The position numbers and the translations under genes were made by a program. From the NCBI RefSeq assembly GCF_002923755.1, contig NZ_PGFZ01000006.1, forward strand, positions 244,085-306,074: a stretch of 61,990 bases of DNA, given 5' to 3'. Positions within the stretch are counted from its first letter, which is position 1. Every line of letters starts with the position of its first letter. This document shows, piece by piece, positions 6,129-23,257 of the stretch. The DNA comes from Methylovulum psychrotolerans. GTDB lineage: Bacteria; Pseudomonadota; Gammaproteobacteria; Methylococcales; Methylomonadaceae. The notes under the pieces were generated by a model. That model was not told the origin of the DNA and did no database searches. It worked only from the letters and a program-made list of their open reading frames with translations.

Positions 6129-7259
6129 TTATCTGATTGCACTAATCGCCCCCATTTTGATTAACCGCGCCCTGACGATATTACGGCTAACCCCCAGTAA
6201 TTTGGCGGTTTGGGTCGCATTGTTATGGCAATAGTTATAAGCCGCCTTAATAATGCTTTCTTCCAAATGGTTATAAAGGTCTTTTTTTTCCGTCTCAAAC
6301 AATTGGTACAGGGCATCATTCAGGCGTGAATTAGATTCCGCTTCATGGCCATAGACATTATTTTCCCTAGGCTTTTGTAGCTGCATACAGGACAATTGCA
6401 GGTCTTCGCTGCGGACGACATGGTTTTTGCAAATGAGCAGGGCATAATGTATGACATTTTCCAATTCCCTGATATTGCCCGGCCAAGTATGTCTTAACAG
6501 CTTATTTTTGGCCTGTTCGTCCAAGGTGATGTCATTATAGCCTAGCCTGCGCCGGTATTCGGCAACGAAGTATTCCGCCAAAGGGAGAATATCCCCGGGG
6601 CGGTTCCTTAAGGTCGGCAACTCCAGATGCGCAACCCGCAGGCGATAGAACAAATCCTCGCGGAAATGCCCCGCCAGCACGGCTTCTTCCAGGCGCACAT
6701 TGGTCGCCGCCACCAACCTTAAATTAATGGGGATGGGTTTCCTCGCCCCCAGCCTTACCACCTCGCGTTCCTGAAGCACCCTGAGCAATTTTACCTGAAT
6801 GCTCAGCGGCAAGTCGCCGATCTCATCCAGAAACAAGGTTCCGGTATCGGCGGCTTCAAACCAGCCGGCCTTACTGGAAAATGCGCCCGTGAACGCACCT
6901 TTTTCATGGCCGAACAATTCGCTTTCCACCAAACTTTCCGATAAGGAACCGCAGTTGACGGCGACAAATGGCTTATCTTTGCGGTGGCTCAATTCGTGGA
7001 TATAGCGGGCAATCAGCTCTTTGCCCGTCCCCGTTTCACCGATCACCAGCACATTGGCATCACTGGGGGCGATCATTTTTATCTGGTTAAGCAGGGCGAT
7101 GGATTTGGGGTCTTCAAAGACTTGTGCCGTCGCCCTGATGGAGGTCGTCAGTTCATGGGGGTTCGGTAGGGTAAGCAAGTTATTTTGCTTCTCTATCGGC
7201 TGGTTCGCTATTTTTTGCTCAGGAAAAAATTCGAAAAAAGGTTTGCTAGTATTATTCAT
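6129..7259 (-). CDS. Sigma-54-dependent activator, SfnR-like
   Basis: A 376-residue enhancer-binding protein that would open sigma-54 promoters by ATP hydrolysis. Visible: Walker A GETGTGKE (74-81), the sigma-54 contact loop GAFTGA (121-126), Walker B LFLDE ending near 146, the FREDLFYRL arginine-finger region, and a C-terminal Fis-type helix-turn-helix (ATQTAKLLGVSRNIVRARL). The first 45 or so residues form no recognisable sensor domain. This matches SfnR of Pseudomonas, which also lacks an input domain and is controlled by its own level. The ATG at 7259 is preferred because it overlaps the stop of the upstream flavoprotein gene as ATGA; a start at 7301 is possible. It is cotranscribed with the DszC-like gene, as in the Pseudomonas sfnECR arrangement. 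It is the obvious candidate to bind the palindromes at 8652-8819 and 17417-17430. Confidence 0.85.
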   Translation of the reverse strand: MNNTSKPFFEFFPEQKIANQPIEKQNNLLTLPNPHELTTSIRATAQVFEDPKSIALLNQIKMIAPSDANVLVIGETGTGKELIARYIHELSHRKDKPFVAVNCGSLSESLVESELFGHEKGAFTGAFSSKAGWFEAADTGTLFLDEIGDLPLSIQVKLLRVLQEREVVRLGARKPIPINLRLVAATNVRLEEAVLAGHFREDLFYRLRVAHLELPTLRNRPGDILPLAEYFVAEYRRRLGYNDITLDEQAKNKLLRHTWPGNIRELENVIHYALLICKNHVVRSEDLQLSCMQLQKPRENNVYGHEAESNSRLNDALYQLFETEKKDLYNHLEESIIKAAYNYCHNNATQTAKLLGVSRNIVRARLIKMGAISAIR

Positions 7260-8467
7260 GAGTAAAATGTCGGTTTTGGGTAAGCTTTGTTCAGTATCCA
7301 TTCCCCTAATTCCTTAATTTTGTAATCCAAAGGGTCATGGAGGGTGTGTGTCCGTAAATTCCGCCAGTGGCGGTCTAGCCTTAAGCCGCCGTGGGTGGCC
7401 CTAGAGCCCATCACCTCAAACATATTGCTGGTGATGTCCATCCCTGTGCGGGTCGCCAGCACTTTTGCCGAGCTGATGGCGATGGCGACCTCGCCGCGTT
7501 CTTCTTCGCCCAGTTGCGTGTCTTGTTGCCAAGCCTTGTCCAATTTGGCCGCAGCCAGGTCGCTTAACACCCGTGTGCTCTCAAGCCCGACATAAAAATT
7601 GCCGTAATGGTTGAGGATATACGGGTCTTGGTTGGCCGCCGCCATGTTGGACGAATGCCAAGGCCTTGCTTCGTTTAAGGTGTATTGCCGGGCATCCTCA
7701 AAAGCCCCTTCGGCAATGCCTAAGTAAATGTTCGTCAGGATCAATTGGGCAACCAAGGGGCGTAAGCAAGAGAAAGGGGTGCTTAACGGCCCCGGTTCGG
7801 CAAGTATTTCATAGTCTTCAACACGGACTTTTTTAAAAATGACACTGCCGCTATCGGTTTGGCGTTGGCCGATATTGTCCCAATCCTGTATGACCGAAAC
7901 GCCTGTCCGGGTAGTCGGAATGGCCGCAATCAATAGCTTGCCGTCCGTTGTGGCGATGGCGGAGACGATGAGCATTTCCGAATCGATCGCCCCCGAACAA
8001 AAGCTTTTTTTGCCGGAAAATTCGTAGCCGCCAAGAAAAGGTTTGGCGGTTAAGCGGGTGTCTAGCGGATTGAGGGCATTGCCCCAAAACCAGTTCAATT
8101 GCGCGGTTTGCTCAAACCAACGCTCCCATTGTTCCGGTTTTGAAAATAGCCGCACCGTCGCCAGCATCAGATGCTGGAACCCGAACACATGCGCCAGCGA
8201 GCTATCGACAGTGGCGATTTTCCTGACGATTTGCATGGTGTCGACCCAATTCGCGCCTTGTCCGCCGTACTTTTTCGGGATAATTAACGCCAACAAGCCG
8301 CTGTTGCGGATTTCGTCCCGCTCCTGCTTTGGTGTCCCTCCCAGATAGTCCCTTTCGACGACGGTCAGGGCAAATAGCTCAGCTAAGTGCTTGGCGATAG
8401 TAAAGGGATCTGGTTGTTCGGCGGTATTTTCTTGAGAGTCGTTGTCAGTGAATTTATTCATATCCAT
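7256..8467 (-). CDS. Acyl-CoA-dehydrogenase-fold flavoprotein, SfnC/SfnB/DszC-like
   Basis: A 403-residue member of the acyl-CoA dehydrogenase fold group that includes the FMNH2-using monooxygenase DszC and the Sfn proteins of sulfur acquisition. Features are the N-terminal helical part (SGLLALIIPKKYGGQG), a middle beta domain with a serine-rich flavin region (SGKKSFCSGA) and the C-terminal four-helix part with HWRNLRTHTLHDP, typical of DszC-like enzymes rather than true acyl-CoA dehydrogenases. It probably oxygenates or desulfurises an organosulfur compound using reduced flavin supplied by a reductase such as the one at 17603. The start follows an AGGAAC ribosome site. A sigma-54-like promoter lies 31 bp upstream, and sfnR-like follows with an ATGA overlap. 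It is a paralogue of the gene at 10089; substrates are unknown. Confidence 0.8.
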   Translation of the reverse strand: MDMNKFTDNDSQENTAEQPDPFTIAKHLAELFALTVVERDYLGGTPKQERDEIRNSGLLALIIPKKYGGQGANWVDTMQIVRKIATVDSSLAHVFGFQHLMLATVRLFSKPEQWERWFEQTAQLNWFWGNALNPLDTRLTAKPFLGGYEFSGKKSFCSGAIDSEMLIVSAIATTDGKLLIAAIPTTRTGVSVIQDWDNIGQRQTDSGSVIFKKVRVEDYEILAEPGPLSTPFSCLRPLVAQLILTNIYLGIAEGAFEDARQYTLNEARPWHSSNMAAANQDPYILNHYGNFYVGLESTRVLSDLAAAKLDKAWQQDTQLGEEERGEVAIAISSAKVLATRTGMDITSNMFEVMGSRATHGGLRLDRHWRNLRTHTLHDPLDYKIKELGEWILNKAYPKPTFYS

Positions 8468-8497: not shown

Positions 8498-8512
8498 GCA
8501 TAATCAGTGCCA
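8498..8512 (-). promoter_or_regulatory. Sigma-54 promoter candidate for the leftward flavoprotein-sfnR operon
   Basis: Read on the minus strand it is TGGCACT-4-ATGC, matching TGGCACG-4-TTGC with GG and GC correctly spaced, 31 bp before the start at 8467. A palindrome TGCTGC-4-GCAGCA (8652-8667) lies about 148 bp upstream and a weaker TGCT-5-AGCA (8551-8563) about 45 bp upstream. This would make the activator gene self-regulated. Confidence 0.6.
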
Positions 8513-8651
8513 ATTTTTTCATTCAAACAGCTTTATTTCATAAAACCCTGTGCTATTAAAGCAGTGAAGGCCTTATCTGAGTTTCTATAACCCTAGCTGA
8601 TTTCAATATCGGTGTCATTTGCTGATAATTTAATGGTATCGACAGGCTAAA

Positions 8652-8667
8652 TGCTGCCAGAGCAGCA
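8652..8667. promoter_or_regulatory. Candidate activator site, imperfect copy
   Basis: TGCTGC-4-GCAGCA, the same inverted half-sites as the 14-bp palindrome at 8776 but with a 4-nt centre. It lies between the divergent promoters and could serve either, most naturally the leftward one. Confidence 0.4.
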
Positions 8668-8756
8668 GGTGCGGTACAGCGTACCGACAAAATAAGCGGT
8701 CGCGAAGCTTACGTCTTGGGAATCAGGTAACTTGCAGATGGCAGGTGGCGGACTTA

Positions 8757-8770
8757 GCTGCTTTATCAGC
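8757..8770. promoter_or_regulatory. Candidate activator site, weak copy
   Basis: GCTGCTTTATCAGC differs at one base from the perfect site GCTGCTTTAGCAGC at 17417. Its centre is 19 bp from the centre of the perfect site at 8776, about two helical turns, which would suit side-by-side binding of activator dimers. Confidence 0.45.
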
Positions 8771-8775
8771 AAAAT

Positions 8776-8789
8776 GCTGCTAAAGCAGC
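8776..8789. promoter_or_regulatory. Candidate SfnR-type upstream activating site
   Basis: Perfect palindrome GCTGCT-AA-AGCAGC. It is identical, on the opposite strand, to 17417-17430. Its centre is about 90 bp upstream of the -24 element at 8873, against about 94 bp for the other copy. Sequence and distance are both conserved between two independent sigma-54 promoters, which is the expected behaviour of an enhancer site. Confidence 0.65.
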
Positions 8790-8804
8790 GACGGATAGGC
8801 GCGT

Positions 8805-8819
8805 CTGCTTTAACAGCAG
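8805..8819. promoter_or_regulatory. Candidate activator site, variant copy
   Basis: CTGCT-5-AGCAG, related half-sites centred about 61 bp upstream of the -24 element at 8873. It is weaker than the site at 8776 and is listed because three such sites cluster within 65 bp. Confidence 0.4.
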
Positions 8820-8872
8820 CAAAGTGCCTAGGCCAATCGCATTAGCCGCATGAAATCATTAAGAAATTTTGC

Positions 8873-8887
8873 TGGCATAGTAACTGC
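8873..8887 (+). promoter_or_regulatory. Sigma-54 promoter candidate for the ssuD operon
   Basis: TGGCATA-GTAA-CTGC, with consensus GG/GC spacing, ending 39 bp before the ssuD start. It is almost identical to the element at 17517-17531 (TGGCATA-GTAA-GTGC). Confidence 0.7.
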
Positions 8888-8926
8888 TTCTCTCTAGCAG
8901 AGGTTTTTTTACTATAGGTTATTAAA

Positions 8927-10072
8927 ATGGAAATATTCTGGTTTTTACCCACACATGGGGATAACCGTTATCTGGGTACCGAAAAAGGTGTCAGGCCGGT
9001 TACTTACTCCTACCTTAAGCAAATTGCCCAAGCTGCGGACAGTCTAGGGTTCAAGGGGGTATTAGTGCCGTCTGGACGCGCTTGCGAAGATCCTTGGGTG
9101 ATTGCGTCATCGCTGATTAACCAAACCAAGCAACTAAAATTTCTGGTTGCCGTCCGGCCAGGGTTTACCTCGCCCACGGTGTCGGCGCGGATGGCCTCGA
9201 CGCTGGATAGGATTTCTGGCGGCAGGCTACTGGTTAATGTCGTGGCTGGCGGCGACCCGGCGGAACAGCGGGCTGACGGCAGCTTTTTACGCCATGACCA
9301 GCGTTATGCGGAAGCGGGGGAGTTTTTAACTGTCTGGAAAGCGGTGCTGGCAGGCGAGGAAATCGATTTTTCCGGGGAGTTTATCAACGTCGAAGGTGCC
9401 AGTTTGCCGTCCGGTGCGGTACAAAAACCCTATCCGGCCTTATTTTTGGGCGGCTCCTCCGATGCCGCCATCAGCTTAAGCGCCGAGCATATTGATGTGT
9501 TTTTGACGTGGGGTGAACCGCCCGCCGCCGTGGCGGAGAAAATAAACCGGGTACGCGCCGAAGCGGCCATATTAGGCCGGACAGTAAAATTTGGTATCCG
9601 TTTGCATATTATTGTCAGGGAATCCAGCAGCGAAGCGTGGGCCGCCGCCGATGGGCTTATCGCCCAAGTGACGGATGAGACGATAGCGGCGGCACAAGCC
9701 GCCATTGCCGGATTTGAATCGGTGGGGCAAAAAAAGATGACCGATCTGCATGGCGGTAAACGCGATAACTTGACGGTGTCGCCTAATTTATGGGCCGGCG
9801 TGGGTTTGGTCAGGGGTGGGGCGGGTACGGCCTTAGTCGGTAATCCGCAAGAAGTGGCAAGCCGGATAAAAGAATATGCCGACCTTGGCATTGAGTATTT
9901 TATTTTTTCCGGCTATCCGCATCTGGAAGAGGCTTACCGTGTCGCCGAGCTGTTATTTCCCTTATTGCCGGTCGAATTGAACCCGGAGCTTGAAACGGGT
10001 ATAAAAACCAATCTGACCGGCCCGTTTGGCGCGGTCAACGTTAAACGCCAACACCCAGTAACCGCAGAATAA
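8927..10072 (+). CDS. ssuD: FMNH2-dependent alkanesulfonate monooxygenase
   Basis: Cleaves the carbon-sulfur bond of alkanesulfonates with reduced FMN and oxygen, releasing sulfite and an aldehyde, so that the cell can use the sulfur. The 381-residue protein matches SsuD almost throughout: the N-terminus [16 protein letters not shown] with C53, the conserved histidine H227 in RLHIIVRE and R296 in [11 protein letters not shown], at positions equivalent to C54, H228 and R297 of the E. coli enzyme. It is the first gene after a sigma-54 promoter and is followed 16 bp later by a DszC-like flavoprotein. The flavin reductase is not in this operon; the likely supplier is at 17603. A preference for methanesulfonate (MsuD-like) is equally possible and would fit the presence of SfnG. 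The ribosome site is weak. Confidence 0.88.
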
Positions 10073-10088
10073 AACAAGGATTGCCCCC

Positions 10089-11303
10089 ATGGCTGTAGTC
10101 GCTCAAGAAATCCCCATTAACCCCCGTTTAACCGAACCCACCACCGCGCAACTGTTTGCGCAAGCGGAGCAGCTTAGCGCGTATTTCTATGAAACCGCCG
10201 CCGAGCGCGATAAACAAGGCGGAACTCCTTTGGCACAGAGGCAGGCCATACGCGATAGCGGTTTGCTGAAACTGTCGATTGCTAAAGAATTCGGTGGCTA
10301 CGGTTTGGCATGGCCGGACATTTACAAAATCATCCGTATCATTGCCCGGGCTGACAGCTCCCTGGCCCATGTGTTCGCCTTCCAATTTTTGATGTTGGCA
10401 TCAATCCGTTTATACGGTAGCGGCGAGCAATGGCAAAGCTTGTTTAAAGAAACGGCGGCGCAGAATTTATGGTGGGGAAATGCCCTTAACCCCTTGGACA
10501 CCCGAACCATCGCCAGCGAAGCCGCAGAGCATCTGCTCTTTAATGGCTTTAAGAGTTTTTGCTCAGGGGCAACCGATTCGGATCGTCTGATTGTGTCGGC
10601 CATCACCGCCGATACGAAAAAATTTATCGTCGCCGCCGTGCCAACCCAGCGGGCGGGCATTTATGTGCATGACGATTGGGATAATATGGGGCAACGCCAA
10701 ACCGACAGCGGCAGCGTTGAATTTAAAGGCCTGAGGGTGGAAAAGCAGGAATTGTTGATTAATCCGGGGCCTTTAAGCTCGCCTTTTTCCAGCCTCAGGT
10801 CTATGGTTGCCCAATTGATTTTTACCAACATCTATATCGGCCTTGCTGAAGGGGCGTTGCAAGAAGGTAAAAAATACACCCAAACCAGCTCCCGCGTTTG
10901 GTCCGGTTCTTTAGCCCAGACTATTCAGGAAGATCCGTATACGTTGTTACATTATGGCGAATTTTGGGCCAGCATTGATGGGGCGAGGTTACTGGCCGAC
11001 CATGCTGCGGCCTTGTTGGACAATGCGTGGGGCAAGGGGTTGGCCTTGACCGATGCCGAACGCGGCGAAGTCGCCCTTGCGGTGTTTTCCGCCAAGGTCA
11101 ACAGCACCAAGGCGGGCTTGGACGTGACCTCACGCATTTTTGAAGTGGCGGGCGCCCGGGCGACCACAGCCAAGCTGGGCATGGATAGGTTTTGGCGCAA
11201 TTTGCGGGTCTACACCTTACACGACCCTATCGATTATAAGCTAAGGGATTTGGGGGATTGGGTCTTAAACGGCAATTATCCTGCCCATAGTTTTTACTCA
11301 TAA
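10089..11303 (+). CDS. DszC/SfnB-like flavoprotein, second copy
   Basis: A 404-residue paralogue of the product of 7256-8467, sharing the same signature blocks (SGLLKLSIAKEFGG, ADSSLAHVFAFQ, WWGNALNPLDTR, SFCSGATDS, DWDNMGQRQTDSGS, FWRNLRVYTLHDP) and the same C-terminal -FYS. It belongs to the acyl-CoA dehydrogenase fold group of sulfur-acquisition flavoproteins and probably works as a reduced-flavin monooxygenase or desulfurase; its substrate is unknown. It follows ssuD by 16 bp with a CAAGGA ribosome site and precedes the amidohydrolase by 19 bp, so all three should share one transcript. Two such paralogues under two divergent promoters suggests different substrates rather than simple redundancy. 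Confidence 0.8.
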   Translation: MAVVAQEIPINPRLTEPTTAQLFAQAEQLSAYFYETAAERDKQGGTPLAQRQAIRDSGLLKLSIAKEFGGYGLAWPDIYKIIRIIARADSSLAHVFAFQFLMLASIRLYGSGEQWQSLFKETAAQNLWWGNALNPLDTRTIASEAAEHLLFNGFKSFCSGATDSDRLIVSAITADTKKFIVAAVPTQRAGIYVHDDWDNMGQRQTDSGSVEFKGLRVEKQELLINPGPLSSPFSSLRSMVAQLIFTNIYIGLAEGALQEGKKYTQTSSRVWSGSLAQTIQEDPYTLLHYGEFWASIDGARLLADHAAALLDNAWGKGLALTDAERGEVALAVFSAKVNSTKAGLDVTSRIFEVAGARATTAKLGMDRFWRNLRVYTLHDPIDYKLRDLGDWVLNGNYPAHSFYS

Positions 11304-11322
11304 CTGACGGAAAGACAACACT

Positions 11323-12174
11323 ATGCAAAAAATAATTGATATGCGCAGCCGTCCGGCTTTTCTCCACGACTTTTTCGGCGCTAACCCCGATTCGGCAGGT
11401 TATCAGACCGCCAAATGGCTTAATCAGCGGGTGGGCTCAAAAGAGCCGGAACATTTCCGGCGTTCCTATACCTTAGAAGGTTATCTTGCGGAAATCGCCC
11501 AAGCTGGCGTGGATAAGGCGGTGATTGTCGGTCGGGAAACGCCCGGCCTGACCATCGATAACGATACCATTGCCGACTTAGTGGCCAGCAGCGGGCAATT
11601 TGTCGGTATCGGGTCGGTGGATATCCTCAGCCGGGGCAAAGACGATGCCATTGCCGAGCTTGTCCGGGCGGTCAAACAATTGGGCTTTAAAGCCATTAAT
11701 ATCGAGCCGGGCTTTGCCGAGCCGCCCGTACAGGCCGATGATCCCGCGCTGTTTCCGGTTTATGAGGCTTGTATCGGTTTGGATGTGCCGGTATGCCTAA
11801 TGAGCGGCCCGACCACGCCTAATTTTGCTTACGCACACCCCAATGCCGTCGCCCGCTTGGCACGAAGATACCCGCTGCTGAAAATCATTTGTTTTCATGG
11901 TTACTACCCTTTTGTCAATGAAGTTATCGGAGCGGCATTCCGCTATGCCAATATCTATCTGGTTCCCGATATGTATATTTTTCAACCGGGTTCGGCGCTT
12001 TATGTCGAAGCCGCCAATGCTTTCTTAGGCGAGCAATTGTTGTTCGGGTCGTCTTATCCGTTCCGTGACATGAAACAGACCGTGGATGACTTCGCCGCAT
12101 TGGGGTTTAAAGACGCTGTTTTGGACAAGGTGTTTTATCAAAATGCCGGGCAGCTGCTAAAAATTGCCGTGTGA
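11323..12174 (+). CDS. Amidohydrolase-family (TIM-barrel) protein
   Basis: A 283-residue protein resembling the Amidohydro_2 group of metal-dependent hydrolases and decarboxylases. It begins with IDMRSRP, has a mid-protein GFKAINIEPGF strand and a FHGYYP block where the family usually has a metal- or substrate-binding histidine, and ends with LLFGSSYPF followed by a C-terminal helix. The first-strand HxH metal motif normally seen as DxHxH is not evident (D-M-R instead), so it may be metal-free or have a changed chemistry. It is the third gene of the sigma-54-driven ssuD operon, 19 bp behind the flavoprotein, so it probably handles the carbon part left after desulfurisation. The exact reaction cannot be named. 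Confidence 0.65.
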   Translation: MQKIIDMRSRPAFLHDFFGANPDSAGYQTAKWLNQRVGSKEPEHFRRSYTLEGYLAEIAQAGVDKAVIVGRETPGLTIDNDTIADLVASSGQFVGIGSVDILSRGKDDAIAELVRAVKQLGFKAINIEPGFAEPPVQADDPALFPVYEACIGLDVPVCLMSGPTTPNFAYAHPNAVARLARRYPLLKIICFHGYYPFVNEVIGAAFRYANIYLVPDMYIFQPGSALYVEAANAFLGEQLLFGSSYPFRDMKQTVDDFAALGFKDAVLDKVFYQNAGQLLKIAV

Positions 12175-12199
12175 AAATGAGGGCTTGTAATTTGATAAA

Positions 12200-15100
12200 T
12201 TAAGTTTGGCCCTCTATTGAGTTATCCGCCAGATAATGCCGGAAAACCGCCATTAACGCGGTGATTTTTAGCTGCAACTCTGTACACAATTGCCCATAAT
12301 CGGCGGGGGGTTGGTTACGCACCGCCGCTTCAATAGCTCCGGCACAGGCCCGCGCGTCTTCCGCCCCCAAATAGCTTAGCGAGCCTTTCAGGCTATGGGC
12401 GGTATTAGCCAATAAGGGCAGGTCAGCCGTTGCCGCCCCTTTTTGCACGTCGGCCAGTTGCCCTGGGGCTTGGTCGAGAAATACCGCCAGCATCGCCAGT
12501 AACAGCTCTTCATCATCGGCCAGGTTTTGTAGGGCCACCGCCCTGTCCCAAACCGGGGTGGTGGGGGCCGGCAAGGCTTGCGCGGATTCGGTATCAGGGT
12601 ACTCTTCTGCATCTGCCCCTAACCAGCGGGCTAACATGGCCGTCAATTGCTCTTGGGTAAAAGGTTTTGCCAGATAATCATCCATACCCGCCGCCAAGCA
12701 GTTTGTCCGCTCGTTGTTATCGGCGTTGGCGGTCAAGGCGACAATGGTCTGGCGGGGAAAGTTACGGCCTTTTTCCAGTAACCGCAGTTCGCGTGTGGTC
12801 TGATAGCCATCCATCATGGGCATTTGGCAATCCATCAAAATGAGGTCGTAGGTGGTTTGCAGCAATTTGTCAAAAGCCAGTTTGCCGTTATCGGCCAGAT
12901 CGGGGGACACTTGGAATTTCGCCAACATACCGATAATGACTTTTTGGTTAACTTGATTATCTTCAACGACCAAGACCTTTTTACCCGCATAACTGGGTTT
13001 GGGCGGTGGTTGTTTGGCTTTGGGCGAGAGGGTTTGTCCATCGTCGCATAAGGCATGGCTAATGGCATCGAACAATTGGGTTTGTCTGGCGGGTTTGAGC
13101 AGACATTGCGCAAGGCCTAAATCCCGGCGTTCGGCATCGTTGAGCAGGCCGCCGGATGTCAGCATAATGCGCGGCAAATCGGTTAAGGCGGGCGTGCCGG
13201 TGATCAGACGCGCTAAGCTTAGGCCGTCCATTTGCGGCATGTGCATATCCAATAACGCCAGATGGTACGGCGTGCCGTCGGTCAGGGCTTGGTGGAGTTC
13301 GGCTAAGGCGGCACTGCCGCTGTCGGCGGTGTTGGCGACAATCCCCCAGTAAGTCAGGTAATGTTTTAAGATCATCCGGTTGGTGGCGTTGTCATCGACA
13401 ATCAACACCCGTTTGCCGACAATATCTGTAGGCGGCTTGTCCGTTACCGGCACTTGGCCGGGCTGTAGCGGCAAGGTAAACCAAAAACAAGTGCCTTGCC
13501 CTGAGGCGCTTTGCAAACCGATGTCACCCCCCATCAGTTCGACCATTTTTTTACAAATCGACAAGCCCAGGCCCGTGCCGCCAAAACGCCGTGAGGTATT
13601 GCTTTCGGCTTGGGAAAACGCTTGGAACAATTGCGCTTGGGCGGGTTCGGCGATGCCGATGCCAGTGTCACGCACCTCAAAACGCACACGATGTTGCCCT
13701 AAGCTGTCCGGCAAATACTGCGCGGTGACCGACACTTCCCCGTACTCGGTAAACTTGACGGCATTGCCGATTAAATTGGTCAGCACTTGGCGGATGCGGC
13801 CCGGATCGCCTTGCCAAAAGCTAGGCAGTTCGGTGGGCATAAAGCAGTTGAGTTCCAAATTTTTGGCATGGGCGCGTACGGCTAATAAAGCGCAGACATC
13901 TTCCGCCAATTCCGGCAAATTGAAATCAATGTGTTCCAGTTCGACCTTACCCGCCTCCAGTTTGGAAAAATCCAGAATATCGTTGAGGATGACCAACAGG
14001 GCTTCTGCCGAAGAATAGGCGGTTTCCAGTAAACTCCATTGGTTAGCCGACATGTCCGTATCGCGGAGCAAATCCAGCATACCCAATACGCCATTCATGG
14101 GGGTGCGGATTTCATGGCTCATATTGGCCAAAAATTCGCTTTTTGCTAAGGCGGCTTGCATGGCCATATCGCGGGCTTTTTCCAAAGACGCTTGGGCGCG
14201 GTCTTGCAGGACAGCGATACCGAGCATTTCGCCGACCTGTTTCAGCATGGCGATGCGCTTGGACAAATGCGCAGGATAGGGTGTGGTATACAAGAAAATG
14301 ATGCCCAAAACCCCGCCTGTGGCGACAATCGGTACAATGTAATGCCCATGCGCCTGCATCCCTTGGAAGGTGTGTTCATGGCGGGGATCACAGAAACAAT
14401 CGTCGGAAATCAGCAATTCGCCCGATACGGCGGCACGTCCGCATAAACAGTCGCCCAAGGCCACGCGCTGTTCTTTGCGGATGAATTCTTCGCTAAATTG
14501 TCCGCGCAACACAAACAGGTGGAGGCAATCCTCTTCCGGCGGGCGCAAAAATACCCCGCCTTTACGTTGCAGCCCGAAAGCCTGCAAGCTAAAGAGTATA
14601 TCCAGCACTTGCCCGCACCGCTCGGCCAAAGGGGCAGATTGTTGTAACAGCTCGGCAATGGCGAGGCAGGCGGCGGTATCTTCTATTTCCATTTGCCGGG
14701 CAATTTCCTCTTGCACTTGCGCGTTGATGTCGCGTTGGATTTGCACATAGCCCGCCAAACTGCTGTCCCTATTGACGACTGGGCTAATGTTCAGTTCCAC
14801 CCAGTAGTCTTGCGGATCTGGCGGCGGCGTTTGTCCGGCGATGGCGAAGGGCAACGGGGCTTTGCGCCGTTGCAGCAAACGCCCTGACCAACTTTCGCCT
14901 TTCCCCAAGGCGGCATCCATGGCCGCCAGAGTGGCCTTGTCGCAATGGGGGCTATCGAGAATATCGGGGGTTTTACCCTGCAACGCCATTTCCGGCCAGC
15001 CGCTAATGCGGCATAAGGCGGGGTTGGTATAGTGGATGTGCCGGGCCGCATCGGTCAACAGGATCATATCGGCACTGGCATTGACCGCCCGCATCAGCAT

Positions 15101-15748
15101 AATGAGTTGTTCATTCGCTTGTTTTTGGGCGGTAATGTCTTGGCGTACGGAAATATATTGGTAAATCAGGCCATATTCGTCCTTTAACGGCGTAATGGTG
15201 CTGTCCACCCAATACAGGCTACCGTTTTTACGACGGTTGCAAAACACCCCTTGCCAGATTTGGCCTTGGCGGATGGTTTGCCACATAGTACGGATATAGT
15301 CTTTGTCGTGATAACCGGAATTGATGATACGGTGGTCTTTACCCAACAATTCCTCTAAAGAATAGCCGGACACCTCACAAAATATTTTATTGGCATGGAT
15401 AATCTGCCCTTGGGCGTTGGCGATGCTGACCAAGGAATGATAATCCATCGCCCTACGCAATTCGGCATTCAGGCGGGTTTGTTTTAGCGCCACGTCACGT
15501 TCTAAGCCGATTTGCACGACTAACCTGCGCAGGACGAAAAACCATAATAACGGTGCGCTGATCAAACACATCAGCAACGCGTCGATTGCCGCTTCTTGGT
15601 ACACCGTTAAGGAGGCGATATGCTGCCGATAAAAATCCAATACCAGCATCACGGCAATTTCGACCAAAAAAATGGTTAGGCTGATGGTCAATAACGACAG
15701 CAGAAACCGGCGGTTTAATTGTTGCGTTGCGCTATGCCGTTTGTTCAT
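12200..15748 (-). CDS. Hybrid histidine kinase (PAS-PAS-GAF-HisKA-HATPase-REC-REC-Hpt)
   Basis: A 1182-residue membrane-anchored phosphorelay kinase. Two hydrophobic helices (about 13-38 and 50-72) with a short external loop anchor it, followed by PAS/PAC about 95-210, PAS/PAC about 215-340, a GAF domain about 350-510, HisKA with the phospho-accepting H545 in [10 protein letters not shown], HATPase with [12 protein letters not shown], receiver 1 with D834, receiver 2 with D973 and a C-terminal Hpt with H1118 in AHSLKGS. All relay residues are present, so it should be active. No response regulator with an output domain is adjacent, so the target is unknown. It lies between the two sulfur operons, convergent with the first. 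The GAF and PAS domains contain several cysteines, which could hint at redox or metal sensing, but this is a guess. Confidence 0.9.
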
Positions 15749-15804
15749 GGTCAGACCTTTAGGGATAAGTTGTTGTCGGCTTTGCCAAGTCCAATTAACC
15801 GCTT

Positions 15805-16785
15805 TTAAGGGACATGGGGTTGGCTAGCTGCGGCATAGTGCAGTAATTTGGCAAACAGAGTATTGGTGTTAATAGGTTTGCTTAAAAAATCGTCCATACC
15901 TGCGGCTTTGCAAGCCTGTGCGTCTTCATCAAGGGCGTTGCCGGTTAGGGCAATAATGTAAGGCTGGTGGATATGGCCCATGGCGCGGATATGGCGGGTT
16001 GCCGTCAGGCCGTCCATATTAGGCATCTGCATATCCATTAAGATAATATCGTAAGTATTTTGCCCGACTTGTACCAACGCTTGTAAGCCATCATTTGCCG
16101 TATCTGGTTTAATGCCTATTTTTGCGATGAGTTTGCCGGCAATGGTGCGGTTTAGTAAGTCGTCCTCAACCAATAAGAGCCGCAAATGCGCCAAAGCCGC
16201 CGTGTTGTCGGTATGGGTAGGGAGCGGGGCGGTCTGTTGCGGTGGGCTTTGCCAAGACAGAAAGGTAAAGTGGAACGTCGCCCCTTGTCCGGGCTCGCTG
16301 TCTACCCAAATTCGTCCGCCCATCATCCGGGTCAGATGGGCGCAACTTGCCAAATTTAAGTCTATGCCGCCAAACGGGTGGGGCGTTGCCATGTCCGCTT
16401 GGCTAAAGGCGGTAAACAACGTGTCTTGGGCAGGTTTGCTAATGCCGATCCCGGTATCTTTAATGCTTGCTTGGATTAAGCCGGGCGTTGCGGTGGCTTG
16501 TAAGCGGATGCTGATATGGCCGTTTTGGGTGTATTTGATGGCGTTAGACAGCAGGCCGGCGATTATTTGCCGTAAGCGCTTAGGATCGCCCACTAAGTTT
16601 TCCGGCACAGCCGCATCAATATCGGCCAGCACCGCTAGGTTTTTACCACGCGCTGGCGGGCGGAAAATGTCTAACAATTCCGCCAGCAATTGCCGGGGGT
16701 TAAAGGGGATGCGCTCAAGTTCCAAGTTACCTGCTTCGATTTTGGCAAAATCGGGAATGTCGTTAAGGCCATCAACAAAGTTTGC
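15805..16785 (-). pseudogene. Beheaded hybrid histidine kinase (HATPase-REC remnant)
   Basis: The reading frame carries a HATPase domain and a receiver domain (LILMD-type MDMQMPNMDG) closely like those of the intact kinase downstream. Its upstream end is cut: the frame opens after a TAA at 16786-16788 and begins in the middle of the HisKA helix (NFVDGLNDIPDFAKIEAG, equivalent to [14 protein letters not shown] of the neighbour). The phospho-accepting histidine and all sensor domains are missing. The ATP-lid is also altered (HPFGGIDLNLA instead of FGGTGLGL). It ends 57 bp before the start of the intact kinase. It is most likely a remnant of a tandem duplicate; translation from TTG 16725 as a 306-residue receiver-bearing protein cannot be excluded. 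Confidence 0.75.
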
Positions 16786-17416
16786 TTAGCGCTTTGCTGA
16801 CCTGTCAGTGGTGTATTCACGCGCTTTTTAGGCGATAAAGCCCTGCATTGATTAGTACGGATCGCGTGAGGTGTCGGACAAAACCTATTATAGGCTTCTT
16901 AGGAGGCGATGTCTTATGAACTGCCGACCATTCCCAAGTAACCGAATAGGCCATCCACAATTACCCTAAAGCTGATCGCCCAGATTCTACCACTTTTTTG
17001 AGACGCTTCGTTACGGTAAAAACGGCGGTTTTTTTAGGTTATCATTTTTCCCGGCAAATCCTTAAGGCTTTGGCCTGTCCACATCTTAAATCTTGTGAAG
17101 GCTGCTATGGGAAGCCATTTCTTTTTTTTACGGTATTGGCGGCTAGGGTGGCAACATCCACGCCGCCGATTTTTTAAACCTCAGAAAATACCCGCGTCAC
17201 ATCAGTCCAAACAATAGACGTTAGCAAATTATCTCCCAAGATTGAATAATTTGCGACACCAGCAAAAAATCCTACTCTTCTCATACAAGCCCAGTCTTGT
17301 GCTTTTTCATCAACACCCACGCATTTCCCCCAAAGCTATTCGCTTAATCGGTCTAGGCTTTCGGTAAGCCCGGCCATAGGTCGGGGATAACAAATATATC
17401 ATTTAAAAAAGCCAGT

Positions 17417-17430
17417 GCTGCTTTAGCAGC
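17417..17430. promoter_or_regulatory. Candidate SfnR-type upstream activating site, second locus
   Basis: Perfect palindrome GCTGCT-TT-AGCAGC, the exact complement of 8776-8789. Its centre is about 94 bp upstream of the -24 element at 17517. A further half-site, gagcagc, follows at 17435-17441. Confidence 0.65.
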
Positions 17431-17516
17431 GATAGAGCAGCAACGCCGCCTGATATTCAACGCCTAAAGGTTTTCTAAAAACGCAATAATATATTGATTT
17501 TAATGGAAAAAATAAC

Positions 17517-17531
17517 TGGCATAGTAAGTGC
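17517..17531 (+). promoter_or_regulatory. Sigma-54 promoter candidate for the reductase-sfnG-transport operon
   Basis: TGGCATA-GTAA-GTGC. The first eleven bases are the same as in the element at 8873-8887. It ends 71 bp before the reductase ATG. Confidence 0.68.
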
Positions 17532-17602: not shown

Positions 17603-18148
17603 ATGAGTGAGAAATTAAAAGTGACGGCCGTTTCCGGCGGTGCGGGTAAACCGTCCAGAACCTTGGCCGTTGTGGAAGAGATTATTGCCCGTCTTGGCCA
17701 ACACATCGCCATAGACCTGCATCTGATTGAACTGGGGGCAATAAGCCCAAGCCTAGGGGCGGTTTCGGCACGCGCCCAATTGCCGGACAGCATCCAAAAC
17801 GATATTGCTGCTATAGAAGCGGCAGATTTTCTGGTGGTGGCGACACCTGTTTACCGCGCCTCGTATACGGGCTTGTTTAAGCATTTGTTTGATCTTGTCC
17901 ATCATGAGGCCTTGTTTGATGTGCCGGTATTGTTGGCGGCCACAGGCGGCAGTGACCGCCATGCCTTGATTATTGATCACCAACTCCGCCCCTTGTTCAG
18001 CTTTTTCCAAGCCTTAACGTTACCGGTTGGCGTTTATGGGACAGAGGCCGATTTCACCGATTATAAAGTCACCAGTAAAGCCTTGGATGAGCGCATTGAC
18101 TTGGCGGTAGCCAGAGCCTTGCCGTTCTTGAAGCCCAGGCAACAATAA
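17603..18148 (+). CDS. msuE: NAD(P)H-dependent FMN reductase, SsuE/MsuE-like
   Basis: Supplies free reduced FMN to the two-component monooxygenases SfnG and SsuD. The 181-residue protein has the flavodoxin-like fold of the SsuE/MsuE group: VSGGAGKPSRT for the FMN phosphate near the N-terminus, TPVYRASYTGLFKHLFDLV around residues 80-98 and a C-terminal helical tail. Length is normal. The start follows an AGGAG ribosome site. It heads the operon behind a sigma-54 promoter, 58 bp before sfnG, the same reductase-monooxygenase order as sfnF-sfnG of Pseudomonas. Preference for NADH or NADPH cannot be decided. Confidence 0.87.
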   Translation: MSEKLKVTAVSGGAGKPSRTLAVVEEIIARLGQHIAIDLHLIELGAISPSLGAVSARAQLPDSIQNDIAAIEAADFLVVATPVYRASYTGLFKHLFDLVHHEALFDVPVLLAATGGSDRHALIIDHQLRPLFSFFQALTLPVGVYGTEADFTDYKVTSKALDERIDLAVARALPFLKPRQQ

Positions 18149-18206
18149 CAGCACGTTGTTTAGGGCAACCTAAAATCTTTAAACCATTAATTAAGTGAGA
18201 AAAATT

Positions 18207-19295
18207 ATGAGTTCCGAACCTATCAAATTTGCTTATTGGGTGCCTAATGTCAGCGGCGGCTTGGTGGTGAGCGACATTGAGCAGCGCACCAGTTGGGATA
18301 TTGATTATAACCGCAAATTGGCGCAAATCGCCGAACAGAGCGGCTTTGAATATGCCCTTACCCAAATCCGTTTCATCGCCGGTTATGGCGCCGAATATCA
18401 ACATGAATCGGTGTCATTTTCCCATGCCTTATTGGCGGCGACCAGCCACCTGAAAGTCATTGCCGCGATTCTTCCGGGGCCTTGGGATCCGGTTTTGGTG
18501 GCTAAGCAAATAGCCACTATCGATATTCTGACGGCTGGACGGGTGGCCGTGAACATTGTTTCGGGCTGGTTTAAGGGCGAATTTGTCTCCATAGGCCAAC
18601 CGTGGCTGGAACATGACGAGCGTTACCGCCGTTCTGAAGAGTTTATTGATGTCCTTAAAGGCATTTGGACGACCGATAACTTTTCCTATAAAGGCGATTT
18701 TTACCGCATCAACAATTTTTCCTTAAAACCCAAGCCGCTGCAAGACCCGCATCCTGAGATATTTCAGGGCGGCAGCTCGCGGGCGGCGCGTGACATGGCC
18801 GCCATGGTGTCGGACTGGTATTTCACCAACGGCAACACCGTAGAAGGCATAAAAGCGCAAATTGATGATATTAAGGCGAAAGCCGCCGCCCATAAGCACC
18901 CGGTCAAAATCGGCATTAACGCCTTTATTATTGCGCGGGACACCGAAGAGGAAGCCAAAGCGGTACTGGCGGAAATTATCGACAAGGCCAACCCGGAAGC
19001 CGTCAATGCCTTCGGCCACGAAGCCAAACAGGCGGGCGCATCCAGCCCTGAACGCGAAGGCAACTGGGCCAAATCCACTTTTGAAGATTTAGTCCAGTAT
19101 AACGATGGCTTTAAGACGAATTTGATCGGTACGCCGCTACAGATTGCCGAACGCATCGTTGCCCTTAAAGCGGTTGGTGTCGATTTGATTTTATCAGGAT
19201 TTTTGCATTTTCAGGAAGAGGTGGCTTACTTCGGCGAGAAGGTGTTGCCGCTGGTACGCGAACTGGAAGAACAAAAAATCGCCTTGGCGGCCTAG
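18207..19295 (+). CDS. sfnG: FMNH2-dependent dimethyl sulfone monooxygenase
   Basis: Converts dimethyl sulfone to methanesulfinate and formaldehyde with reduced FMN and oxygen, giving a sulfur source (and a C1 unit). The 362-residue protein is strongly SfnG-like: KFAYWVPNVSGGLVVS, RTSWDIDYNRKLAQIAE, ILPGPWDPVLVAKQIATID, NIVSGWFKGEF, HDERYRRSEEF and EIFQGGSSRAARD all follow the family. The luciferase-like TIM barrel is complete. ATG at 18207 is preferred over a GTG at 18195 since the protein then begins MSSEPIKFAYW. The product could feed SsuD/MsuD-type enzymes of the neighbouring operon after oxidation to methanesulfonate. In a methylotroph the released formaldehyde would also be useful; this is inference. 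Confidence 0.92.
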   Translation: MSSEPIKFAYWVPNVSGGLVVSDIEQRTSWDIDYNRKLAQIAEQSGFEYALTQIRFIAGYGAEYQHESVSFSHALLAATSHLKVIAAILPGPWDPVLVAKQIATIDILTAGRVAVNIVSGWFKGEFVSIGQPWLEHDERYRRSEEFIDVLKGIWTTDNFSYKGDFYRINNFSLKPKPLQDPHPEIFQGGSSRAARDMAAMVSDWYFTNGNTVEGIKAQIDDIKAKAAAHKHPVKIGINAFIIARDTEEEAKAVLAEIIDKANPEAVNAFGHEAKQAGASSPEREGNWAKSTFEDLVQYNDGFKTNLIGTPLQIAERIVALKAVGVDLILSGFLHFQEEVAYFGEKVLPLVRELEEQKIALAA

Positions 19296-19341: not shown

Positions 19342-20505
19342 ATGACAGCGGATACCTTGCCTTTTTGGCTAAATTATCAAGCCAGCGAACAGCCTGTTAA
19401 GGTCGCGCTACGGCATAAACAACGGGGTATCTGGCAGGAAAAACGCTGGCTTGAGCTGCGCCATGACATCGCCTCGCTGGTGTCGGCACTCCAAGCCAAG
19501 GGCTTTGCGCGGGGTGACACCTTGTATCTGCTCTCTGACCCAAGGCCTGAAGCCCTGCTGCTTGCCATTGCCGCGCACTGGTTGGGCGGCAGTGCTACCC
19601 CGTTAGACCCTAATGCTGGCGAGGCCGATACCCTTAGCCTGTTAGCAAGGTTACAACCCGCTTTCATTTTTGCCGAAGGGCAATGCCAAGTCGACCTCGC
19701 CCTAAAATTGGCCCTTAAGCCGCCGTTGATCATTTATGCCGATGCACGGGGCTTGTCCGGTTATCAGCAAGGTGTTTTACAGCCTTATGCCCAATGGCTG
19801 GGCGCGGCTAATGCTGGCTCTATTAGCCCGCCCATCGCCCAAGCCCATGATGATGCGTTTGTGTTTTTTCGTCTGGACCCGCAGGGGCAAGTGGAGCGGC
19901 TAAACCTGACCCACCACCAGTTGTTAAACCAAGGCCGCGAGCTGGTTAAGCAGGAGCGTTTGACAAGTCAGGAAGAGGCCTTGGCCGCTAGGGCGTTTGC
20001 CGCCAGCGGACATCTGCGTTACTTGCTGGCGCCGTGGCTGCTGGCTGGGTTTACGCTGAATTTTCCCGAAAATATCAATACCCGCGATATAGACAGGCGT
20101 GAGCTAGGGCCGACCCTAGTGGCCGGCACTAGCCAAACTTATCAACGTTTGGAAGCGCTGATCTATGCGCGGTTGCCGTTGCCGGGTACAGTCCGGCGGG
20201 CTTTCTTGGATTGGTCGCTGACCGCACCGGCCCAGACCAAGCCTTGGTATAAATTGTTCGCTTATTGGTTAACGATAAGGCCGCTGCGGGATGTGATCGG
20301 CTTTAGCCGCACCCGCGTCCCCTTATTGGTCGGGGAGGTGTTGCCGGAACCGTCCGCCGCATTTTTTGCCGCCCTAGGTATCAGGGTCAGGAATTGGCCG
20401 GATGCTTGCGATTGGCAACCCTCCCCCAATAGCCCCAAGCCTAAACATGTCCTTCAGGATAGCTATCTTGATGACAGCCTCACCCAGTTGGGGGCGCAAG
20501 CATGA
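19342..20505 (+). CDS. Degenerate, shortened acyl-CoA-ligase-like protein (probable pseudoenzyme)
   Basis: A 387-residue protein alignable to the N-terminal half of AMP-forming acyl-CoA ligases (VALRHKQRGIWQEKRWLEL, then GDTLYLLSDPRPEALLLAIAAHWLGG). Where the phosphate-binding loop T/S-SGTTG-PKG should lie, residues 171-191 read like FVFFRLDPQGQVERLN followed by LTH, so the frame of the motif is recognisable but its glycine, serine and lysine residues are gone. The later adenylation motifs (YGxTE, TGD, catalytic lysine) are also absent, and the protein is about 250 residues shorter than usual. The reading frame is intact and overlaps livG by 4 bp (ATGA), so it is probably translated. Full-length ligases are known next to Liv-type importers in other proteobacteria; here it may have become a regulatory or scaffold subunit. 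Confidence 0.7.
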   Translation: MTADTLPFWLNYQASEQPVKVALRHKQRGIWQEKRWLELRHDIASLVSALQAKGFARGDTLYLLSDPRPEALLLAIAAHWLGGSATPLDPNAGEADTLSLLARLQPAFIFAEGQCQVDLALKLALKPPLIIYADARGLSGYQQGVLQPYAQWLGAANAGSISPPIAQAHDDAFVFFRLDPQGQVERLNLTHHQLLNQGRELVKQERLTSQEEALAARAFAASGHLRYLLAPWLLAGFTLNFPENINTRDIDRRELGPTLVAGTSQTYQRLEALIYARLPLPGTVRRAFLDWSLTAPAQTKPWYKLFAYWLTIRPLRDVIGFSRTRVPLLVGEVLPEPSAAFFAALGIRVRNWPDACDWQPSPNSPKPKHVLQDSYLDDSLTQLGAQA

Positions 20506-21278
20506 CGGCCCGCAACCCACTGTTAACGCTTGAGCATATCTCGCTGTCGTTTAAAGGCGTTAAGGCGATTACCGACATGAGTTTTAGCGTCGCCGAAGGG
20601 GAAATCTGCGCCTTGATCGGCCCTAATGGGGCGGGTAAAAGTTCGCTGCTTAACGTGATTAACGGCGTTTATCAGCCTGATGACGGCATCATTACTTATG
20701 ATGGGGAAATCCGCACCGCCATGAGGCCGCACCATGCCGCCGAGCGGGGCATTGCCCGCACCTTCCAAAACATTGCCTTATTTAAAGGCATGAGCGTACT
20801 GGATAACGTGCTGACCGGGCGCAACCTAAAAGTCCAAAGCAGTTGGCTGGAGCAAGCCTTTAATGTCGGCCGTGCGCCTAAGGAAGCGCTGGTGCAGCGG
20901 CAAAAAGCCGAGGAAATCATCGAATTTTTAAGGATTCAGCCGTGGCGGGGTAGTTTGGTGGGCGGCTTGCCTTATGGCCTGCAAAAACGGGTGGAATTGG
21001 CCAGGGCATTGGCGGCAGAGCCTAAGTTGCTGTTATTGGATGAACCGATGGCGGGGATGAACAGGGACGAAAAAGCGGAAATGAGCCGTTTTATTGTCGA
21101 TACCCAACGGGAGTTTGGCACCACCATTGTCTTGATCGAACATGACATTGGTGTGGTGATGGCGCTGTCACAGCACTTGGTCGTTTTGGATTATGGCAAA
21201 AAAATTGGCGACGGCCCGCCTGAGGCGGTCCGTAACAACCCCGAAGTGATTGCCGCTTATCTGGGCACGAGACATTAA
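20502..21278 (+). CDS. livG: Liv-type ABC transporter ATPase, LivG-like
   Basis: One of the two ATP-binding subunits of a branched-chain-amino-acid-type (HAAT) importer. 258 residues: Walker A GPNGAGKSS, Q-loop in ARTFQNIALF, signature region LPYGLQKRVELARAL (an unusual variant of the LSGGQ helix), Walker B LLLLDEP with MAGMN typical of LivG, H-loop IEHDIGVVM. It overlaps the ligase-like gene by ATGA and is 18 bp from livH. The importer genes are in one operon with an FMN reductase and SfnG, which points to organosulfur uptake instead of amino acids; this is inference from context. Confidence 0.88.
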   Translation: MTARNPLLTLEHISLSFKGVKAITDMSFSVAEGEICALIGPNGAGKSSLLNVINGVYQPDDGIITYDGEIRTAMRPHHAAERGIARTFQNIALFKGMSVLDNVLTGRNLKVQSSWLEQAFNVGRAPKEALVQRQKAEEIIEFLRIQPWRGSLVGGLPYGLQKRVELARALAAEPKLLLLDEPMAGMNRDEKAEMSRFIVDTQREFGTTIVLIEHDIGVVMALSQHLVVLDYGKKIGDGPPEAVRNNPEVIAAYLGTRH

Positions 21279-21296
21279 TAATAGTGAGTGACGACG

Positions 21297-22178
21297 ATGA
21301 GTTTTTTCTTTGAGGTATTGCTGGGCGGTTTGCTGGCCGGGGTCATGTATTCTTTGGTCGCCATTGGCTTTGTGCTGATTTACAAAGCCTCCGGGGTGTT
21401 TAATTTCGCCCAAGGCTCGATGGTGCTGTTCGCCGCCCTGACGTTTGTCAGCCTGTTGGAGCGCGGCATTAGTTTCTGGCTGGCCTTTGTCCTGACGCTG
21501 CTGGCGATGGTGGCGCTGGCTTGGACGATAGAGCGGTGGGTGCTGCGCAAATTGGTTAACCGCCCGCCCATCACCCTGTTCATGGCGACCCTGGGTTTGA
21601 GCTACATCATCGAAGGCTTGGCGCAATCGCTGTGGGGGGCGCAAGTGCATGGCCTGGACTTGGGCATCAATGATGAGCCTTTCGAGTTTCAGGGCATGTT
21701 GCTGTCGCAGTTCGATATTTTTGCGGCTTGCGTCGCCGGGGTCTTAGTGCTGGTGCTGTCGGTCTTTTTCAATAAGACCCGTACCGGCATCGCGCTTCGC
21801 GCCGTTGCCGACGATCAGTTGGCGGCGCTGGCAGTCGGCATCAAGCTGGAAAAGCTATGGCTAATCGTTTGGACGGTAGCCGGATTTGTCGGCTTGGTGG
21901 CTGGGCTGCTCTGGGGGGCGCGGTTGGGGGTGCAGTTTTCCTTATCGCTGGTGGTGCTGAAAGCCTTGCCGGTGTTGATTATCGGCGGCTTCACCTCCAT
22001 CAGCGGTTCGATTGTCGGCGGGCTTATTATCGGCGCTTCTGAAAAGCTCGCGGAAGTTTTTTTGGGGGCTTATATCGGTGGCGGCATTGAAAACTGGTTC
22101 CCTTATATGCTGGCGATGCTGTTTTTGCTGGTCAGGCCTACGGGCATTTTTGGCGAACGCCAAATCGAACGGGTGTAA
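21297..22178 (+). CDS. livH: Liv-type ABC transporter permease, LivH-like
   Basis: A 293-residue inner-membrane permease with about eight hydrophobic helices. The N-terminus FEVLLGGLLAGVMYSLVAIGFVLIYKASGVFNFAQG is the hallmark of LivH, and TRTGIALRAVADDQLAALAVGI is the cytoplasmic coupling region that contacts the ATPase. The ATG at 21297 is chosen; a GTG at 21288 would add three residues. It lies between livG and livM with short gaps, so it is part of the same transcript. Confidence 0.88.
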   Translation: MSFFFEVLLGGLLAGVMYSLVAIGFVLIYKASGVFNFAQGSMVLFAALTFVSLLERGISFWLAFVLTLLAMVALAWTIERWVLRKLVNRPPITLFMATLGLSYIIEGLAQSLWGAQVHGLDLGINDEPFEFQGMLLSQFDIFAACVAGVLVLVLSVFFNKTRTGIALRAVADDQLAALAVGIKLEKLWLIVWTVAGFVGLVAGLLWGARLGVQFSLSLVVLKALPVLIIGGFTSISGSIVGGLIIGASEKLAEVFLGAYIGGGIENWFPYMLAMLFLLVRPTGIFGERQIERV

Positions 22179-22189
22179 AGGAGGCAACC

Positions 22190-23257
22190 ATGTTGTATAG
22201 GGAATCAGGCCAATTTAGCACCAGTTACCCAGCGGATCGGCGGATATTTCGCTTGTATCAGGAGCGGTGGGCGTTTTATTTGTTGTTGGCGGCGGCGTTT
22301 TTGTTAATCCCCTGGCTAGGCAATGACTATTGGTTCAGCGCCATTTTAATCCCTTTTCTGGTGTTGTCCTTAGCCGCCTTAGGACTGAATTTGTTGACGG
22401 GCTATGCCGGGCAGTTGTCTTTAGGCTCGGCGGCCTTTATGGCCGTCGGCGCATTCGCCGCCTATAACAGCCATTTGCGCATCGAAGGCTTGCCGTTTTT
22501 ATTGAGCCTCCTTTTGGGCGGTGTGGTGGCCGGGTTGACCGGGGTGGTGTTTGGCTTACCCAGTTTGCGGATTAAAGGCTTCTACATTTTGGTATCAACC
22601 TTGGCTGCCCAATTCTTTGTGCTCTGGGTATTCACCACCTTTGCTTGGTTTTCCAATGACAGTTCGTCAGGGGTGATTACCGCCCCGCCCTTGGTGATAC
22701 TGGGCCACGATTTCAGCTCACCGCAGGGACGGTATTTATTCACCCTGACGGTCGTCGTGGCACTGGGATTTTTGGCAAAAAGCATCGTCGGCAGTGAATT
22801 GGGCAGGAATTGGATGGCGGTGCGTGATATGGACAAGGCGGCGGAGGTGATCGGCATCGCCCTTCCCAAAGCCAAATTATTGGCCTTCGCCATCAGTTCC
22901 TTTTATCTGGGCATCGCCGGTTCTTTATGGGCTTTTTGCTATCTGGGCACGGTGGAGCCGCATGGTTTTGATTTGAGCCGGTCTTTCCAGATTCTCTTCA
23001 TCATCATTATCGGTGGTATGGGCAGTATTTTGGGTAATTTCTTAGGAGCCGCCTTTATTGTCCTGTTACCTATCTTGCTCTCCCATATCGCCAGCGGTTT
23101 GTTGGCCGATACGATTGACGCGGGGCAACTGGAGAACTGCCAAAAAATCATCTTTGGGGGCTTAATCATCTTTTTTCTGATTAAAGAACCCGATGGCCTG
23201 GCAAAGATTTACCAAACCTGCAAACAACGTTTGCAGGTCTGGCCGCTACGTTTTTGA
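22190..23257 (+). CDS. livM: Liv-type ABC transporter permease, LivM-like
   Basis: A 355-residue second permease of the importer with about ten hydrophobic segments. GYAGQLSLGSAAFMAVGAF near residue 70 and LRIKGFYILVSTLAAQF are conserved LivM blocks, and GRNWMAVRDMDKAAEVIGI is the ATPase-coupling loop. Start is supported by AAAGGAGG seven bases before the ATG. The gene for the binding protein follows after a 250-bp gap that holds a dispersed palindromic repeat. Confidence 0.88.
   Translation: MLYRESGQFSTSYPADRRIFRLYQERWAFYLLLAAAFLLIPWLGNDYWFSAILIPFLVLSLAALGLNLLTGYAGQLSLGSAAFMAVGAFAAYNSHLRIEGLPFLLSLLLGGVVAGLTGVVFGLPSLRIKGFYILVSTLAAQFFVLWVFTTFAWFSNDSSSGVITAPPLVILGHDFSSPQGRYLFTLTVVVALGFLAKSIVGSELGRNWMAVRDMDKAAEVIGIALPKAKLLAFAISSFYLGIAGSLWAFCYLGTVEPHGFDLSRSFQILFIIIIGGMGSILGNFLGAAFIVLLPILLSHIASGLLADTIDAGQLENCQKIIFGGLIIFFLIKEPDGLAKIYQTCKQRLQVWPLRF

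Follow-up and report, generated by a model that had tools for sequence, protein, structure and literature searches.

The window analysed here, a stretch of 61,990 nucleotides from Methylovulum psychrotolerans (Methylococcales), very probably carries an SfnR-type sigma-54 regulon for organosulfur use, in which a linked activator binds the palindrome TGCTGC-N4-GCAGCA and activates the msuD and msuE-sfnG operons. According to the model that we propose from comparison of sequences, the sensor-less activator encoded at 6129-7301 would be made in one operon with an MsuC-like enzyme and would bind the palindrome at distances of about 60, 91 and 110 bp before the -24 element. Once bound, it would switch on sigma-54 RNA polymerase at two operons, msuD (8927-12174) and msuE-sfnG (from 17603), and the enzymes would convert dimethyl sulfone via methanesulfinate and methanesulfonate to sulfite, with induction presumably occurring upon sulfate shortage. 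A regulon of this kind is already known from Pseudomonas SfnR, and a specificity variant, the SRH type described below, stands beside it. The site would provide a concrete and testable DNA code for sensor-less sigma-54 activators governing the use of dimethyl sulfone and methanesulfonate, would extend this code to methane and methanol users, and could allow organosulfur regulons to be predicted from sequence.

Activator, operons and promoter elements of the window

The activator was originally predicted at 6129-7259 and a gene of this type is indeed found there, but its open reading frame on the minus strand spans 6129-7301 (390 aa), and tblastn matches to several relatives begin at residue 1. 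The product has an AAA+ sigma-54 domain (63-226, Pfam) with a GAFTGA loop in its sequence and a C-terminal Fis-type helix-turn-helix (HTH_8, 21.7 bits, just below the Pfam cut-off of 22) whose recognition helix reads SRNIVRARL. The Pfam search reported no sensor domain, N-terminal or other, and the gene is linked to sfnG/msu genes with -24/-12 promoters, both features of SfnR-type activators. As no sensor domain was seen, the signal should lie in how much activator is present, or in a partner. The gene overlaps that of a flavin monooxygenase at 7256-8467 (minus strand), and a second enzyme of the same kind is encoded at 10089-11303 (plus strand). With 282.8 and 269.9 bits, respectively, neither reaches the cut-off of the SfnB equivalog TIGR04022 (430.9), and both are therefore named only SfnB/DszC-like or MsuC-like; the first is called MsuC-like by gene order, its product being 66% identical to that of a P. 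aeruginosa PA7 gene which overlaps an activator gene in the same manner.

All genes of the two rightward operons lie on the plus strand. The msuD operon begins with an alkanesulfonate monooxygenase of the SsuD/MsuD type (8927-10072; TIGR03565, 573 bits, cut-off 518; 64% identical to its PA7 homologue) and continues with the second monooxygenase and an amidohydrolase-family protein (11323-12174; Pfam PF04909). The other operon encodes the FMN reductase MsuE (17603-18148; TIGR03566, 244 bits, cut-off 212.5) and the dimethylsulfone monooxygenase SfnG (18195-19295; TIGR04021, 623.6 bits, above the cut-off of 382.95). To judge from their order, the genes for an AMP-binding protein and a Liv/Urt-type ABC transporter (ATPases, permeases and binding protein, assigned by Pfam; 19342-25654, plus strand) would belong to it as well. 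The expectation of dimethyl sulfone-type genes is thus borne out by the TIGRFAM matches (SfnG, MsuE, MsuD-type), which are of the dimethyl sulfone/methanesulfonate kind. In P. fluorescens, dimethyl sulfone is converted to sulfite via SfnG, MsuC and MsuD, according to PMC8234197. The two rightward operons of the window are separated by genes for sensor kinases and response regulators that are read from the opposite strand (12200-16725), and the operons lie much nearer to each other in the relatives L060, L061, L139 and L142.

The -24/-12 elements of the msuD operon (8873-8887, plus strand, TGGCATAGTAACTGC) and of the msuE-sfnG operon (17517-17531, plus strand, TGGCATAGTAAGTGC), described beforehand as nearly identical, differ at one of 15 bases. 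The third element, said to face left, was found at 8498-8512 (minus strand, TGGCACTGATTATGC) before the msuC-activator operon, and an element occupies the matching place in the 17 relatives of the divergent-region set considered below. The palindrome GCTGCT-N2-AGCAGC is present without mismatch at both places claimed for it, 8776-8789 and 17417-17430, and its centres lie 90.5 and 93.5 bp upstream of the TGG of the respective element, in agreement with the estimates of about 90 and 94 bp. Related copies had been reported at 8652, 8757 and 8805; the copies are real, but the positions shift slightly, to 8653-8666 and 8757-8770 (one mismatch each) and 8804-8817 (two mismatches). We also scored the window with a weight matrix for the site, trained on the promoters of relatives, a training set which includes a slice (L095) covering almost the whole locus. 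Four enhancer-like sites were found between the diverging promoters. The best of the window, 8651-8668 (score 21.9), lies at a distance of 148 bp to the leftward promoter and of 214 bp to the rightward one, and 8755-8772 (16.2), 8774-8791 (17.7, containing the first exact palindrome) and 8805-8822 (15.7, overlapping the copy at 8804-8817) are 110, 90.5 and 60 bp upstream of the msuD -24 element. The fifth site, 17415-17432 (19.0), contains the second exact palindrome and precedes the msuE -24 element by 93.5 bp. A palindrome with one mismatch inside the msuE coding sequence (17807-17820, matrix score 18.0) is probably due to chance.

The palindrome and its spacing in related bacteria

The main evidence comes from relatives. 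A scan of genome contigs for the activator, of which the best 80 of 176 matches were kept, gave 79 loci. Of 311 genomes searched within the order, 22 contained SfnG, and the stretch surrounding sfnG was taken from 20 of these besides the window, with one more genome (G126) added later. As promoters we counted TGGCA(C/T/A)-N6-TGC elements followed at 20-300 bp by a gene homologous to one of the window; together, the window, the 79 loci and the 20 stretches yielded 91 of them, 77 being non-redundant and three of those coming from the window. Palindromes with halves of 5 or 6 bases and spacers of 0-8 bp were sought 35-140 bp upstream of 73 promoters, with the window excluded. The top palindrome was TGCTGC-N4-GCAGCA, which occurred with at most one mismatch in 39 of the 73 promoters, and in 25 of 45 when one promoter was kept per genus and gene, while in 100 shuffles no palindrome reached more than five and four promoters, respectively. 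At least one promoter bearing it was found in 18 of 23 genera. The exact 14-mer GCTGCT-N2-AGCAGC was recovered too, yet in only 25 of the 73 promoters; the two forms have a common centre, and the palindrome is better written as TGCTGC-N4-GCAGCA. By class of promoter, the motif stood 35-140 bp upstream in 15/17 msuD, 11/15 msuE and 5/21 MsuC-like promoters. Some relatives show no site, among them the Azotobacter locus L126 and the Pseudomonas locus L082, a genome-wide composite scan of PA7 gave no match, and three Zoogloea msuE promoters score below 0 with the site matrix. Many related bacteria nevertheless appear, by their sequences, to keep the arrangement of sites and activator.

The sites also keep their distance from the promoters. 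Of 66 best sites, 43 stand 86-94 bp away from the TGG, and lesser clusters occur at 48, 60-63 and 79-81 bp; overall, sites stand mainly near 60 and 91 bp and sometimes at 110 bp, and the msuD promoter of the window has all three. We compared 18 divergent regions, namely the window and 17 relatives chosen because both promoters are visible in them (in L068, L073, L074 and L084 the facing gene is MsuC-like instead of msuD). At the promoter that faces the activator operon, all 18 have a site at 80-94 bp, 14 have one at 58-62 bp and seven have one at 110-112 bp. Where a -24/-12 element precedes one of these gene families, a site at 44-116 bp accompanies it in 66 of 89 cases (two contigs, which by their equal lengths and positions are apparently the same in L060/L140 and in L061/L141, are counted twice among the 89 and once in the non-redundant sets); the corresponding figures are 27 of 124 for other -24/-12 elements and 355 of 20000 for positions taken at random.

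The situation is less clear for the activator's own operon, which belongs to the MsuC-like promoter class. That the activator regulates this operon, as was also predicted, is plausible but weaker than the rest, since only five of the 21 promoters of the class bear the motif and the nearest strong site in the window is 148 bp away. In all 18 divergent regions, the activator promoter has a site at 148-194 bp, which in the compact regions is one of the facing gene's own sites. Eleven of them have another within 62 bp, and the window is not among these 11. Where the gap is wide (the window, L060 and L061), there is an extra site 192-214 bp from the msuD promoter, too distant to be one of the usual msuD sites. 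Distal autoactivation from 8651-8668, or another form of feedback, is plausible, and in our model the activator may regulate its own operon from this site.

Recognition helices and rival readings

Could the palindrome be read by a protein other than the linked activator? That the linked activator is the reader is best supported here by the way in which helix and site change together. Among the 22 sfnG genomes, the activator is of the window type in six and of a sister type in 14, one (G109) has a different helix (RHR), and the stretches fetched from G126 contained no activator. The sister-type activators, which form a clade of 11 rows in the tree (support 100/99), have the recognition helix SRH, in contrast to SRN in the window type. 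Like the window, their clusters, which are other sfnG clusters of Methylococcales, combine sfnG/msu-type genes and -24/-12 elements with paired sites near 60 and 91 bp; unlike the window, these sites are mainly TGCCG-N6-CGGCA rather than TGCTG-N6-CAGCA, and the activators have a longer C-terminus. Sites were found at ten of the 14 SRH loci, clearly at eight and more weakly at L149 and L151, and none was found at L148, L152, L156 and L157. At the varying base of the half-site, SRN loci have T 64 times and C twice (33 sites), whereas SRH loci have C 24 times and T six times (15 sites; Fisher p 6e-15, on rows that are related to one another). The helix was read directly at 14/14 SRH and 25/29 SRN loci, the other four (L064, L066, L067 and L143) being placed by kinship, with G126 and G109 left out; sites of L076-L078, 98 bp upstream and with G at the varying base on one side, fall outside the distances used in this count. 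Zoogloea, Paracidovorax and Variovorax, which we take to be GC-rich, mostly keep T (L076-L078 are the exceptions), so base composition is no obvious cause of the change. The switch may be a single evolutionary event, and the two helix groups differ at other residues as well. A class-wide scan for the SRH-type site found it in two genomes among 369, the first a member of the order that was already in our set and the second with the site in flagellar genes, and thus provides no independent second case. The C-terminal extension beyond the helix-turn-helix, which ends in WWGY, WWGF, CWGF or VWGY, was seen in the SRH-type activators L144-L158 and L228-L233 and is absent from the window activator.

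We give about even chances to the view that Methylococcales harbour two parallel, co-evolved sulfur regulons, SRN with TGCTG-N6-CAGCA and SRH with TGCCG-N6-CGGCA, in which the exchange of N for H possibly sets one base per half-site and insulates the regulons, with promoters moving between lineages together with their activator. The paired change would offer a defined hypothesis on which residue reads which base in Fis-type recognition helices.

It might be argued that the palindrome is the site of a different sulfur regulator, such as one of the CysB type, which acts at the same promoters. Other regulators do act nearby, since SfnR is under CysB control in Pseudomonas, judging from the title of Endoh 2003, but copies phased 60-110 bp upstream of -24/-12 elements, and a site which changes along with the activator helix, fit a sigma-54 activator better, and we consider it very unlikely that the palindrome belongs to such a regulator. 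Binding by a paralogue seems very improbable. The closest other activator of the genome (C34:368274-369308, L004) is likewise sensor-less and 59-62% identical to that of the window, but its helix is different (SRNILRHRL), the surrounding 19.9 kb hold no palindrome with up to two mismatches, and one bare TGCTG-N6-CAGC core was seen about 7 kb away, within a large open reading frame. This paralogue adjoins histidine kinases and polysaccharide genes, in an exopolysaccharide gene region, and paralogue-type genes with an RHR or RHK helix are found in many genomes of the family. The comparison strongly supports the original prediction that the linked activator controls both rightward operons through the palindrome; from the de novo motif, the fixed spacing and the covariation of helix and site, we infer that it binds there.

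That the palindromes are a product of chance or a dispersed repeat has a negligible probability and was rejected: loose matches abound in the window, where 58 with up to three mismatches stand against 29.7 expected, and the matrix gives 12 further matches there scoring at least 12, coding sequence included, but there are only three exact copies of GCTGCT-N2-AGCAGC in the 5.19-Mb genome and the motif was recovered from relatives far above the shuffles. Two of the exact copies are those at the promoters and the third is in the 3' end of a coding sequence which we take to be nifH from its protein sequence, without a family search; a palindrome common throughout the genome away from sigma-54 promoters, the observation named in advance as contrary to the prediction, was thus not encountered. 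A genome scan close to the one suggested with the prediction, for GCTG-N6-CAGC followed after 70-100 bp by TGGCAY-N6-TGC, gave two matches, both in the window, and none for the reversed pattern. With 38-68 bp between core palindrome and promoter element, the whole genome gave no match, and the strict pattern hence points to no further targets with a site at 45-75 bp. Strings resembling -24/-12 elements are not enriched in the window by themselves (17 found, 25.2 expected). The significance of the sites lies in their combination with promoter elements and in their conservation. An order-wide composite scan matched 52 of 311 genomes, with the reversed control matching in eight; this tally was not used, as many of the matches share one recurring sequence that resembles conserved coding sequence.

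Evolutionary relationships and known systems

In the tree, the window activator groups with activators of Methylophilaceae (100/99), within a larger, weakly supported group of Betaproteobacteria (90/94). Next to them stands a group from Pseudomonas and Azotobacter that includes MsuC-linked activators; the window activator joins it with support of 93/96, under the 95 mark of the tool, and kinship to the Pseudomonas SfnR proteins is possible. The SRH-type activator is found in further genomes of this order and genus. It is likely, to judge from these groupings, that the cluster was transferred between methanotrophs and methylotrophic Betaproteobacteria.

The closest known system is the SfnR/SfnR1/SfnR2 regulon of Pseudomonas (P. 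putida DS1, P. aeruginosa PAO1), which shares with the window a sensor-less activator of the same family, sigma-54 promoters and targets of the sfnG, msuE, msuD and msuC type. In Pseudomonas, SfnR is reportedly regulated by CysB and acts with sigma-54 to activate sfnFG and sfnA, which is what Endoh 2003, Endoh 2005, Habe 2007 and Lundgren 2019 are said to describe, and dependence on CysB is known for that system only. The window differs in that the msuC-activator and msuD operons diverge and a Liv/Urt-type transporter follows msuE-sfnG. In P. aeruginosa PA7, homologues of MsuE, MsuD and MsuC, as we presume the genes to be named, lie together with two such activators, one of which overlaps the msuC homologue. 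Exact TGTTGC-N4-GCAACA stands 92, 92 and 107 bp before -24/-12 elements at sfnG in three of eight Pseudomonas/Azotobacter loci (L221, L222 and L224); a fourth has a weaker form and the other four have no site. From these three loci, the Pseudomonas site is probably a close variant of TGCTGC-N4-GCAGCA, from which it differs by one base per half-site. Our literature search, whose coverage did not extend to the key SfnR papers, returned no account of the site or the regulon in methanotrophs.

Strong sites were also found at other promoters of Pseudomonas and of SRH loci. The ten first genes scanned behind them encode two TonB-type receptors, one M20 peptidase, two FadL-like porins and five proteins without a Pfam match at 1e-10, and as further targets they are only suggestive. 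The TonB-type receptor genes (L087:13522-15825 and L137:13655-15895, both Pseudomonas) follow -24/-12 elements with strong sites and are possible additional targets. The FadL/TodX-like outer-membrane porin genes (L145:1656-3032 and L154:9063-10400) follow -24/-12 elements with SRH-type sites; perhaps these porins serve the entry of organosulfur substrates.
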